From NCBI RefSeq assembly GCF_024362485.1, contig NZ_CP101456.1:2170001-2234000 (forward strand): a DNA stretch of 64,000 nt, given 5' to 3'. The notes beneath the pieces were generated by a model. It did not search any database. It was not told where the DNA came from and saw only the letters and a list, made by a program, of their open reading frames with translations. The position numbers were made by a program, and so were the translations under genes. The stretch comes from Natronobeatus ordinarius. Its GTDB lineage: Archaea > Halobacteriota > Halobacteria > Halobacteriales > Natrialbaceae. Every line of letters starts with the position of its first letter. Position 1 is the first letter of the stretch. This document shows, in pieces, positions 32,629 to 36,306 of the stretch.

Positions 32629-33474
32629 CTACTCGAGTGTCGCCTCGGTGTCGATCCCGTAGGCAAGTGCCGGCGTCTCGACGTGGGCGTTGTGGACGGC
32701 CCCGGCGTACCCTTCCTCGAGCAGCCACGAGACGCGCTTCGGGACGGTCTTCGGTCCCAGCACTGCCCCCGGGCGGTCGGGGTCGTCGATGAAGTCCGTC
32801 TCCATGAGGAACGGTGCGCCGCGTTCGGCCGCCACCCTGAGCTCGTCCTCCCGGCTCGTCACGCTCGGAATTGGCCCCTCGAGCGTTCCGCGAGCGAAGT
32901 GCTTGATCACCCGGTGGGCGGGCAGTCCGGCCGCCTCGGCCCACTCGGCCACCTCGCTCATGTCCTCGGTGTCCTCGGCGTGGAGCTGCACGGCACAGTC
33001 GCGCTCGGCCGCCAGTTCGAACGCCCGGCGCATGACGGCGTTCGAGGCCTCCCAGACGTCGTCGGGGGCGTCCCAGTGGGGTCGTCCGGACTTCAGCCCC
33101 AGCACGTCCTCGCGATCGGCGTACTCGGCGGCGACGTCGATTCCCCCTCGCATGATCTCGCTCGCCTCCTGCGGATTGTAGCCGTGCCCCCCGATCAGCT
33201 GTGAGATACAGCCGGGGTGAACGCCCAGGCACGCCCAGGCGCGTCCCTCGAGCAGCTCGGTCGCCTCCGCGACGATCTCGAGCGTTCGTTCGAAAACGGG
33301 ACGGAAGTCCTCACCCGCGTCGGCCTCGACGCCGAGATGCCAGGAGGGCTTGTTGATCACGATCAGGTGCGTCCCTCCCGCGCGGGCGAAGTCTTCGACG
33401 GCCTCGAGCCCGCGGCCGTGGTCGGGATCGATGTGGATGTGGTTGTCGAGCACCGGGCTCTCGAACTCGCTCAT
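32629..33474 (-). CDS. TatD-related metal-dependent hydrolase
   Basis: This protein of about 281 residues has a TIM-barrel amidohydrolase signature: His12-Ile-His14 near the N terminus, followed by GVHPGCISQL, LKSGRPHWD, a QLHAEDTED strand and a METDFIDDP motif carrying metal-ligand Asp. This agrees with archaeal TatD-like hydrolases (phosphoesterase or DNase type). The ATG at 33474 (MSEFESPVLDNHIHIDPDHG) places the HxH at the usual position; an upstream ATG at 33567 is too far. It is divergent from the flavoprotein operon. Confidence 0.85.
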   Translation of the reverse strand: MSEFESPVLDNHIHIDPDHGRGLEAVEDFARAGGTHLIVINKPSWHLGVEADAGEDFRPVFERTLEIVAEATELLEGRAWACLGVHPGCISQLIGGHGYNPQEASEIMRGGIDVAAEYADREDVLGLKSGRPHWDAPDDVWEASNAVMRRAFELAAERDCAVQLHAEDTEDMSEVAEWAEAAGLPAHRVIKHFARGTLEGPIPSVTSREDELRVAAERGAPFLMETDFIDDPDRPGAVLGPKTVPKRVSWLLEEGYAGAVHNAHVETPALAYGIDTEATLE

Positions 33475-33759
33475 GACTCGAGGTGCGGGCGCGAGCGGTG
33501 AAAACGCACCGACTTTCAACTGAAACCGATCTGGAGCCTGAGCGCACCTCGTCCGTGCGGGCTCCACATGGTGGACAGCCCTCCGGTTGCAACTGCTGGT
33601 AGTTTTGCAACGGCTGCGTCAACAGCGCCCACTGCCGAATCGGCAGCAGGTAGCTACCTCATGTCTGTGGTAGTAGCTAACATTGCGCTTGGTGACGACG
33701 GTTCACACGTATTGCCGAGCTATACCCGTTCTCCAAACGAGAGAAGGAGGACTGAAACC

Positions 33760-35148
33760 ATGGCAACAGCACCTACAGACGTTGACGCGGAGATAGAACT
33801 GTTCGAGGGGGCGCTTCGAGGCAACCTCCTCCACGCCGGCGACCCCGAATTCGACGACGCGCGCGCCGTCTACAACGCGATGATCGATTCGCACCCGCGG
33901 CTGATCGCCCGGTGTGCAAACGTCGCGGACGTGATCGAAGCCGTAACGTTCGGGTGCGAACACAGTCTCGAGACGGCGATCTGCAGCGGTGGTCACAACG
34001 GTGCCGGTCTGGGAACCGTCGACGACGGCCTGGTCATCGACCTGTCGCCCATGACCGGCATCCGCGTCGATCCCGAGGCGAAGACCGTCCACGTCGAACC
34101 CGGCTGCACCTGGGGTGACGTCGATCACGCCACGCACGCCTTCGGCCTGGCGACGGTCAGCGGGGTCATCTCGACGACCGGCGTCGGCGGGCTGACCCTC
34201 GGCGGCGGGCACGGCTATCTGAGCCGCAAACACGGGCTCACCATCGACAACCTGGTGAGCGCCGACGTCGTCCTGGCTAATGGACAGCTCGTCCACGCGA
34301 GCGCGGACGAGAATCCGGACCTGTTCTGGGCCCTGCGCGGCGGCGGCGGGAACTTCGGCGTCGTCACCTCGTTCGAGTTTCAGTTACACCCGGTCGAGAC
34401 GGTCGTCGCCGGACCGCTGTTCTGGCCGATCGACGAACTCGAGACCACGATGCGCTGGTACCGCGAGTGGCTGCCGGAAGCACCCGAGGACGTCTACGCG
34501 TTCTACGCGATCCACGAAATCCCGGGTGATCCGTTCCCCGAGGATATCCACGGCGAGAAGGTCTGCGGGCTGCTGTGGTGCTGTCTGGGATCGGAAGCCG
34601 AGGCCGACGACGTGATCCAATCGGCTCGAGACGTCGCCGACCCGCTGTTCGAACACGTCGAGCCGATGCCGTATCCGGCCCTCCAGAGCCTGTTCGACGA
34701 CCTGTACCCGTCGGACGAACAGTGGTACTGGAAGGGCGATTTCGTCCGCGAACTGTCCGACGAGGCCATCGCCGAACACGAGCGCTTCGCCGAGGTTCCG
34801 ACGGCCAAATCGACGATGCACCTCTACCCCATCGACGGCGCCGCCCAGCGCGTGGATGCGGACGAAACCGCCTGGGCGCATCGTGACGCGACCTGGTCGA
34901 TGGTCATCGCCGGCGTGGACCCCGATCCCGCCAACGAGGACCTGATCACGAGCTGGGCCGAGGACTACTGGGAGGCAGTCCACCCCCACACGGCCGGCGG
35001 CTCGTACGTCAACTTCATGATGGAAGAAGGCGAGGACCGTATCCGTGCCACCTACGCCGATAACTACGAACGACTGCGGAAAATCAAAGCGAAGTACGAC
35101 CCGGATAACTTCTTCCACGTGAACCAGAACATCGAACCCGAACCATGA
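33760..35148 (+). CDS. FAD-linked oxidoreductase (berberine-bridge-enzyme-like)
   Basis: This 462-residue flavoprotein belongs to the FAD-binding PCMH/BBE family. The covalent-flavin histidine is His79 in CSGGHNGAGLGTVDDGLVIDLSPM. The FAD loop VSGVISTTGVGGLTLGGGHGYLSRKHGL has Ile/Ser where bicovalent members have a Cys, so attachment should be by histidine only. The C-terminal BBE motif is YADNYERLRKIKAKYDPDNFFHVNQNI. It likely oxidises a sugar or related alcohol; substrate unknown. A Shine-Dalgarno-like GGAGG (33746-33750) precedes the ATG at 33760. The stop overlaps the next ATG, so this gene is coupled to a riboflavin enzyme. Confidence 0.88.
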   Translation: MATAPTDVDAEIELFEGALRGNLLHAGDPEFDDARAVYNAMIDSHPRLIARCANVADVIEAVTFGCEHSLETAICSGGHNGAGLGTVDDGLVIDLSPMTGIRVDPEAKTVHVEPGCTWGDVDHATHAFGLATVSGVISTTGVGGLTLGGGHGYLSRKHGLTIDNLVSADVVLANGQLVHASADENPDLFWALRGGGGNFGVVTSFEFQLHPVETVVAGPLFWPIDELETTMRWYREWLPEAPEDVYAFYAIHEIPGDPFPEDIHGEKVCGLLWCCLGSEAEADDVIQSARDVADPLFEHVEPMPYPALQSLFDDLYPSDEQWYWKGDFVRELSDEAIAEHERFAEVPTAKSTMHLYPIDGAAQRVDADETAWAHRDATWSMVIAGVDPDPANEDLITSWAEDYWEAVHPHTAGGSYVNFMMEEGEDRIRATYADNYERLRKIKAKYDPDNFFHVNQNIEPEP

Positions 35149-35876
35149 AGCGCCTCGAACACGGTACCGACCCACCGCTCTCGGAACGATCACGACCGCT
35201 CCCAGCCGTGTTCGAGAACGACCACGGACCGTCGGTCCCCGTTGACGACGTGATTGCGGCCTTTCGAGCGGGTAGTCCGGTGTTGATTCACGACGCCTCG
35301 GACCGGGAGGGCGAGACGGATCTCGTCTATCCGGCACGAGCCGTCACGCCCGCCATCGTCACCCGGCTGCGCAACGACGCCGGCGGCCTCATCTGCGTGG
35401 CCGTCGCTGACCGCGTGGCCCGACACTGGAGACTGCCGTTCCTCCACGAGACGCTCGACCACCCCGCGACGGCGAATCACGACCTCGAGTACGACGAGCG
35501 CTCGTCGTTCTCGCTCACGGTGAACCACCGTGACACCCACACGGGCGTCACCGACGAAGACCGTGCGCGCACCATCGCCACCATCGGGACAGCCGCCGCA
35601 GCCCCGGAGACGCTCGAGTTCGCCAAAACGTTCCGAACACCCGGCCACGTCCACCTGCTGCGTGCAGCCCCCGACCTGCTGGCCGACCGGCAGGGACACA
35701 CGGAACTCGGAGTGGCGCTGGCGGTGGCGGCGGAGCTGCCGCCGGCTGTGGTCGTCTGTGAGATGCTCGACGACGAGACGGGACGGGCACGCTCGCCAGC
35801 CTCCGCGAAGACGTACGCGGACCAGAACGGTGTCCACTACGTGGAGGGGGCACGTCTCGTCGACCGGTTCGGATGA
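35145..35876 (+). CDS. ribB: 3,4-dihydroxy-2-butanone-4-phosphate synthase (RibB)
   Basis: This 243-residue enzyme of riboflavin biosynthesis converts ribulose 5-phosphate to the four-carbon precursor. The catalytic motif DASDREGETDL (residues 50-60) provides the acidic metal-site residues, HRDTHTGVTDEDRARTI and RTPGHVHLL are the substrate loops, and HTELGVALAV closes the fold. The 30-residue N-terminal extension and extra C terminus differ from the shortest bacterial forms. The ATG at 35145 overlaps the oxidoreductase stop by 4 bases, so flavin supply is produced together with a flavin consumer. Confidence 0.88.
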   Translation: MKRLEHGTDPPLSERSRPLPAVFENDHGPSVPVDDVIAAFRAGSPVLIHDASDREGETDLVYPARAVTPAIVTRLRNDAGGLICVAVADRVARHWRLPFLHETLDHPATANHDLEYDERSSFSLTVNHRDTHTGVTDEDRARTIATIGTAAAAPETLEFAKTFRTPGHVHLLRAAPDLLADRQGHTELGVALAVAAELPPAVVVCEMLDDETGRARSPASAKTYADQNGVHYVEGARLVDRFG

Positions 35877-35954
35877 TCGGTCGCCGTGGCGAGCAGCAAC
35901 GATCTACGCGCCCAAAACGCACAGGTCAGTATCGTAGTACTGATTAGGCAACGT

Positions 35955-36029
35955 ATGACCTTCTACGACCGGGACGGCGAACTCGAATCGCTAGAAACAG
36001 CGTACACGTCGCCCGGTCACGCCTGCTAG
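35955..36029 (+). pseudogene. Remnant of an archaeal AAA-type ATPase N terminus
   Basis: An ATG-initiated 24-codon frame reads MTFYDRDGELESLETAYTSPGHAC and stops at TAG. The pattern FYDRxxELxxLxxAYxSPGH resembles the start of archaeal ATPases of the Arch_ATPase type (PF01637), whose P-loop would follow. Nothing ATPase-like follows here, so this looks like a truncated relic. It lies about 280 bases from tRNA-Glu. The assignment rests only on this short match. Confidence 0.4.
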
Positions 36030-36306
36030 CTCGAAAAGTGGATTCGTCAACGACCTCGCCGACGACCTCACCGACGACTGGGTACTGCTTGACCTTGACG
36101 CCCTCGAACAGATTTTCACGTGGCGAATCGCTGGACTGCACCGACTTCAACCGGGAGACCTGGGAAGCTGAAGCGGGAACTGGCGGACGGTTCGTGTCCA
36201 AGAGTTCCCGCTTCACTGGGTCGTGGTGAATCGCCATACGGCGTCAGGTTATAGTTTTCCGCTGATCAGTTTACGGTGAACATCACGAAAATGTGGCGGG
36301 GAGAAG
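36030..36306. other. Region of possible mobile-DNA scars beside tRNA-Glu
   Basis: No intact gene. A 13-base perfect inverted repeat (TGAAGCGGGAACT at 36169-36181 and its complement at 36203-36215, loop 21 bases) resembles hairpins at ends of IS200/IS605-type elements. The sequence next to it shows no complete transposase. Together with the ATPase remnant, this suggests decayed mobile DNA. Confidence 0.4.
36169..36215. repeat. 13-bp perfect inverted repeat with 21-base loop
   Basis: TGAAGCGGGAACT pairs with AGTTCCCGCTTCA. It is long enough to fold into a stable hairpin. It could be an insertion-sequence end, a terminator of the riboflavin operon or a structured RNA. Confidence 0.6.

Follow-up and report, generated by a model that had tools for sequence, protein, structure and literature searches.

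Why a riboflavin-synthesis gene should overlap the gene of a flavoenzyme is the question raised by a locus of the haloarchaeon Natronobeatus ordinarius, which lies in the 64,000-nucleotide stretch of contig NZ_CP101456.1 that was analysed as a whole (hereafter, the window). An earlier note on this DNA had offered two answers, namely local flavin supply for a highly expressed or exported flavoenzyme, or an extra RibB paralogue diverted to another sugar-phosphate substrate. Our analysis favours supply over diversion, as a function deduced from sequence comparison: with a probability of roughly 0.6, the second gene of the pair, ribB2, encodes an accessory RibB for flavin supply that lies in a flavoenzyme operon outside RbkR control and is conditional and dispensable.

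The overlapping gene pair and its two products

The upstream gene (33760..35148, forward strand) encodes a 462-aa EncM-like FAD oxidoreductase of the BBE family, in which PF01565 (E = 8e-32) and PF08031 (E = 2e-14) both pass the Pfam cut-offs, and is preceded by a Shine-Dalgarno-like GGAGG (33746..33750, forward strand) at a spacing of nine bases from its ATG. The downstream gene, ribB2 (35145..35876, forward strand), encodes a second RibB of 243 aa, of the DHBP synthase family, which matches PF00926 (E = 3e-51; 174 against a cut-off of 26.4) and TIGR00506 (198.8 bits, where the cut-off is 177.45). The TGA stop of the BBE gene shares four bases, ATGA (35145..35148, forward strand), with the ATG of this complete RibB. 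The coordinates given earlier for both genes were exact, and the description of a BBE-type oxidoreductase joined through an ATGA overlap to a RibB-type gene was confirmed by the sequence, Pfam and NCBIfam. The GC contents of ribB2 (68.4%), the BBE gene (64.8%) and the window (65.5%) were uninformative, and no Rfam riboswitch was detected in or 5' of the pair (33400-36100) up to an E value of 1.

A search at E 0.001 identified two RibB genes in the genome. The other, housekeeping ribB is located at 964 kb, directly 3' of an RbkR-like gene, and rbkR is likewise described as adjoining ribB in Haloferax volcanii in passages of PMC8305020. The extra RibB paralogue suggested by the earlier note was therefore borne out by the rbkR-ribB locus at 964 kb, and the opposite case, a sole ribB always found in this context, does not hold. 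An origin of ribB2 by recent duplication within this genome was considered and is disfavoured, since RibB2 is 62% identical to the genome's other copy as against up to 71% to the housekeeping RibBs of other genomes. Lumazine synthase is encoded by a single gene, away from the pair.

Concerning the activity of RibB2, eleven catalytic and metal-site positions (M. jannaschii D21, R25, E26, E28, D30, C55, T112, H147, H164, E166 and E185) are unchanged in it and identical in 51/51 aligned rows; they are intact in the five linked copies of the family, and a sixth copy from another family of the order (L168) is intact by the motifs looked for. With these positions unchanged, nothing was found in favour of the proposed diversion to another substrate. 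The N-terminal extension remarked on earlier is real, with 32 aa ahead of the domain, but it is nothing special, falling within the range of 0-44 aa (median 20.5) seen in 46 other RibBs of the order with start codons chosen by rule.

For the BBE protein, the closest solved structure by sequence is EncM of enterocin biosynthesis, a flavin-N5-oxide oxygenase (E = 9e-102), and the match covers residues 10-461, that is, the full length. The EncM residues H78, V135, V136, T139, L144 and H138 are named in passages of PMC7662398, and the numbering matches that of the printed EncM chain. His79 of the window protein, equivalent to the FAD-linking His78 of EncM, is His in 96/96 rows of close relatives, in an alignment that includes at least six near-duplicates; an 8-alpha-histidyl-FAD is predicted at this position, and the FAD is probably covalent. 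A second, cysteinyl link to FAD is typical of bicovalent BBE-like members; at the place where the motif would put it, the window protein has SGVISTTGVGG without Cys, the alignment being one without bicovalent members. BBE-like VAO/PCMH flavoproteins combine FAD_binding_4 with a C-terminal BBE domain carrying a Y/FxN motif, according to passages of PMC11375781, and this motif is present as YVNF at residues 416-419, with Tyr in 96/96 rows.

EncM T139, L144 and Y416 are kept in the window protein, and at the O2 pocket it has V136, I137 (a conservative change) and T140, with L145 nearby, which correspond to EncM V135, V136, T139 and L144; the pocket Thr occurs in 96/96 rows and the Leu in 95/96. 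Two positions differ from EncM: H138 is replaced by Thr (88/96 rows), and E355, presumably a functional residue of EncM, by His (96/96 rows). By these comparisons the window protein is a BBE-like family member near EncM with a different pocket, and its substrate probably differs from that of EncM because E355 is an invariant His in its group. The idea of an exported enzyme found no support, as the N-terminus is not signal-like by eye.

Conservation, loss and selection of the linked RibB

A close BBE gene (E 1e-150 or better) was found in 22 of the 125 genomes of the family, and the conservation of the pair, a point raised by the earlier note, proved to be patchy. An intact RibB lies directly 3' of the BBE gene in five of the 22 (G000, G131, G126, G144 and G032), RibB wreckage occupies the same junction in another five, and 12 have no clear RibB trace. 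Of the wrecks, L039 has lost an internal segment in frame, L043 has a different deletion, L046 and L050 combine frameshifts with deletions, and L126 is truncated. Local alignment against shuffles confirmed all five, the other 12 loci scoring 24-36 against 30-38 for the best of 30 shuffles; four of these apparently empty loci (L127, L133, L134 and L135) exceed their best shuffle by 1 to 5 points, and L134 may hold a trace. In the sixth intact pair, that of L168, the BBE protein is 80% and the RibB 70% identical to the window's.

The ATGA junction is present at 5/5 family loci with an intact RibB, at 4/5 with a broken one (the fifth has GTGA) and at 1/12 without RibB, and it is also found at L168. 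Because the junction tracks the presence of RibB among the 22 family loci, the overlap is unlikely to have arisen by chance. At L038, RibB must start further in, its reading frame being different from that of the overlapping ATG.

The BBE enzyme would need no linked RibB, since 17 of the 22 family BBE genes are without an intact RibB directly downstream, and ribB2, broken or not found beside these close relatives, is on this comparative evidence dispensable. More widely, the best 80 BBE loci (at least 56% identity) belong to halophilic archaea and to several bacterial phyla; six of them have a complete or fragmentary RibB nearby (two intact, four broken), and 74 have none in the flanking DNA examined. 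Across 91 loci, the neighbours of the BBE gene gave no clue to a pathway: apart from the antisense frame of the BBE gene, which came up at 12 loci, no neighbour cluster occurred in more than eight (RibB in six).

The counts of five intact, five wrecked and 12 not found suit an alternative account, in which an active and nearly useless RibB behind the BBE gene is being lost lineage by lineage. The sister loci L039 and L043 are broken differently, L126 has lost its RibB beside the intact sister L123, and BBE relatives persist without RibB, all of which agree with such a decay. The dN/dS values of the 10 pairs among the five family copies point the same way, being 0.21-0.37 for RibB2, 0.09-0.26 for the housekeeping RibB encoded in the same genomes and 0.08-0.18 for BBE, with RibB2 above housekeeping RibB in 10/10 pairs that are non-independent and include some housekeeping dS near saturation. 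These values are nevertheless well below 1, six copies are still open and keep the catalytic positions or motifs, with the five family copies separated by synonymous distances of 0.35-1.06, and other RibB copies recur near flavoenzymes. RibB2 is thus, as far as substitution rates indicate, under purifying selection that is looser than that on housekeeping RibB, and we consider the loss of a nearly useless gene an unlikely explanation, though one of some weight. Under the supply reading, the benefit of ribB2 would be conditional, and therefore the gene would decay wherever flavin supply is not limiting.

In phylogenetic trees, the linked RibBs form one clade, with support of 100/99 when five are included (leaving out L143 and L138 (flagged broken), L145 and L006) and an SH-aLRT value of 99 when six are included (also without L004, L023, L030, L161, L167 and the housekeeping L157 and L163). 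The clade falls outside the main housekeeping group of the family, where deep branches are poorly resolved. In a BBE tree of 37 chosen rows, all rows with an intact or broken RibB fall in one group (94/96) of 19 rows, eight of which have no RibB; the intact/none label changes four times (3-5 in bootstrap trees), and well-supported branches force only one change. One gain followed by several losses is the simplest history suggested by these trees, although how many losses occurred is not firm; the pair may also have been transferred.

In four genomes (L037, L120, L039 and L043), the pair or its remnant is followed by the gene of a conserved, roughly 425-aa protein that resembles a molybdopterin sulfite oxidase by eye; its relatives also occur near the BBE gene at L040 and L129, and it is absent from the window.

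RbkR operators and the neighbours of extra RibB copies

A strong, long operator with a consensus near GTTTTGTTATGCATNCCACATTCGGTATGCTTTTA is found upstream of haloarchaeal rbkR-ribB. The matrix for this operator, trained on 34 sites from 45 loci with an RbkR-like match, scores 36.8-61.8 at the training loci and 24.2-44 at 8/8 housekeeping loci outside both the training set and the family (among L153-L169). The maximum over the whole window is only -6.3, so that RbkR control of the BBE-ribB2 pair was rejected. Scores do not exceed -14 in the 500 bases 5' of the BBE gene in the window and 15 relatives, nor -3.9 over the whole length of the four other family BBE-RibB loci, and L168 reaches -15.7. 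The window copy thus shares with haloarchaeal rbkR-ribB a homologous RibB domain and the same catalytic residues, but has neither RbkR nor its operator beside it.

Escape from RbkR as a rule for every extra RibB was also considered and was dropped. The extra loci outside the family score at most -0.5 (9/9), and seven of the eleven other extra loci of the family score at most -5.5, but four of these 20 loci score near a weak operator (L118, 10.0; L143, 14.4; L119, 22.8; L138, 23.5). L119 and L138 fall just short of the weakest housekeeping operator (24.2), and L118 and L143 are flavoenzyme loci despite their intermediate scores; perhaps some extra copies are under weak RbkR control. By matrix score, the BBE-RibB pairs are without an RbkR operator, whereas certain other extra copies may have retained a weak one.

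The missing operator and the presence of the catalytic residues would also suit a general dosage effect, in which RibB2 raises the total cellular DHBP synthase without any special tie to its neighbour. The position of ribB2 behind a flavoenzyme gene, with the overlap kept in relatives, argues against such an effect, and we judge it improbable.

The region upstream of the BBE gene contains a conserved non-coding stretch (33600-33759) with the palindrome AGATAGCTATCT near -110, which is also present at L038, L123, L126, L127, L135, L055 and others; at L055 (Halorussus amylolyticus) the stretch occurs with no RibB found in the flanking DNA examined. The palindrome AGGTAGCTACCT (33648..33659, forward strand) is a candidate operator of the BBE gene. 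Of 45 BBE loci listed, 12 have a similar site (at least 9/12 bases) between -94 and -116, some beside a RibB and some not; the palindrome was chosen by eye from the same sequences, and nine of the 12 sites were reached in at most 4/200 shuffles. The conserved stretch is possibly the site of an unknown regulator. RNAalifold found no pairing that would indicate a structured RNA leader in the upstream alignment of 18 loci.

The company kept by other extra RibB copies was compared with that of housekeeping copies, using 20 extra loci that exclude the five family BBE pairs and include L168; outside the family, extra copies were followed in eight genomes with at least two RibB matches among the matches listed from 392 genomes. 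A luciferase-like monooxygenase lies within 4 kb of 12/20 extra RibBs as against 0/16 housekeeping RibBs (Fisher p 0.0002), and any flavoenzyme of the eight kinds tested lies near 15/20 as against 4/16 (Fisher p 0.006). Of the 12 monooxygenase loci, seven belong to a single cluster type. With cluster types collapsed by hand, the figures are 6/13 against 0/16 for luciferase-like genes (p 0.004) and 9/13 against 4/16 for any flavoenzyme (p 0.03). The flavoenzyme profiles came mostly from extra loci (two kinds came from controls), and other kinds would be missed on both sides. The four positive controls have an electron transfer flavoprotein (L003), an acyl-CoA dehydrogenase (L163) or a proline dehydrogenase (L165 and L169).

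Within the family, extra RibBs adjoin luciferase-like monooxygenases at L117, L139, L141 and L142, a flavin reductase lies near the extra copy at L117, and electron transfer flavoproteins at L118 and L143, the latter also with FAD-dependent oxidoreductases. Outside it, at least six more extra RibB loci have luciferase-like genes, in addition to the BBE pair of L168. Five extra loci are without a tested flavoenzyme (L119, L138, L140, L166 and L167), two of them cut by contig ends, and the neighbours scanned at L119 and L140 include none. In the 4.2-Mb genome that contains the window, ten luciferase-like genes were counted, all more than 200 kb away from both ribB genes.

Since extra RibBs recur beside flavoenzymes and ribB2 is without an RbkR operator, flavin supply is the best-supported role for RibB2. 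The BBE gene and ribB2 would form a two-gene operon with one transcript and translational coupling, and the accessory RibB2 would raise flavin supply whenever the flavoenzyme is made. Outside RbkR control, RibB2 would convert ribulose 5-phosphate to 3,4-dihydroxy-2-butanone 4-phosphate for use by the single lumazine synthase, and the extra FAD would load the BBE enzyme. As this enzyme probably binds FAD covalently, one FAD would be spent per new polypeptide.

A possible shared pathway, known systems and wider meaning

A closer metabolic link between the two proteins was also weighed, in which the DHBP made by RibB2, or a derivative of it, is a substrate or side product of the BBE oxidase on a two-step route from ribulose 5-phosphate. 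The coding overlap, the several sugar oxidases among the BBE relatives in the PDB list and the invariant His at EncM E355, which makes the substrate of EncM an improbable one, are compatible with this link. Against it, BBE relatives occur without RibB at 74 of the best 80 loci and at 12/22 family loci, the RibB catalytic positions are unchanged, and extra RibBs also lie near unrelated flavoenzymes, so that we hold it very improbable. Least probable of all is its most specific form, in which DHBP rather than riboflavin is the purpose and the EncM-like enzyme, possibly through a flavin-N5-oxide, oxidises the C4 sugar phosphate or its product as a new two-step branch from ribulose 5-phosphate.

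The supply reading has a parallel in the lux-rib genes of Photobacterium, where, according to a passage of PMC9378992, riboflavin genes are co-transcribed with a flavin-consuming enzyme, ensuring cofactor supply. The window pair likewise sets a rib gene beside the gene of a flavin-using enzyme, in the co-oriented and, here, overlapping layout of that type. It differs in that a rib operon and bacterial luciferase are found there, whereas here a lone ribB (the only PF00926 gene at the locus, with no group of several rib genes) accompanies a probably covalent-FAD oxidase in an archaeon. Passages of PMC10012899 describe duplicated functional rib genes outside the main operon in Aeromonas salmonicida, which resemble ribB2 in this respect; as described there, the extra ribB differs in being transcribed by itself, with a predicted FMN riboswitch ahead of it and no flavoenzyme tie. 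No prior description of the BBE-RibB pair was found in the mostly open literature on haloarchaeal BBE proteins, lux-rib, extra ribB and DHBP synthase. The comparison suggests that the pair is a new form of a known type of rib-flavoenzyme operon, and the extra RibBs beside other flavoenzymes suggest that the arrangement recurs in haloarchaea.

The wider link of extra RibBs with flavoenzymes is a more useful result than the patchy and dispensable pair. A candidate haloarchaeal rule is that extra RibB copies tend to be clustered with the genes of flavin-dependent enzymes, mostly without an operator for RbkR, a flavin-sensing regulator; this operator is missing at 16 of the 20 scored loci and at the BBE pairs. 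If true, cofactor supply would be wired to single pathways, and an extra ribB would be a pointer to flavoenzyme pathways yet to be characterised. Further flavin-N5-oxide chemistry might also be sought in the EncM-like subfamily, which keeps the O2 pocket and has an invariant His for E355.

Several RibB loci stood out during these comparisons. The extra RibB at L139 (2219-8500) has a GTP cyclohydrolase III beside it, together with a luciferase-like monooxygenase and an AMP ligase, and this cluster may combine two early riboflavin steps. In a cluster that recurs at L142, L144, L154, L156, L158, L160 and L161, the extra RibB is accompanied by a luciferase-like monooxygenase and by a riboflavin-kinase-like domain that lacks the HTH part; a glyoxalase and an iron alcohol dehydrogenase are often present too, identified by Pfam at L142 and by eye at the other loci. 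The extra RibBs of L119 and L138, which have no tested flavoenzyme, lie near a lipoyl ligase-like gene, an FGGY sugar kinase and a DRL-type oxidoreductase (by Pfam at L119, by eye at L138) and possibly have a different role. Seven genomes of genus g61 (G372, G292, G340, G290, G249, G229 and G192) have a single RibB scoring 269-275 bits, against 202 for the next best listed; the open frames are 418-606 aa long, as though a bacterial-type RibBA had replaced the archaeal gene.
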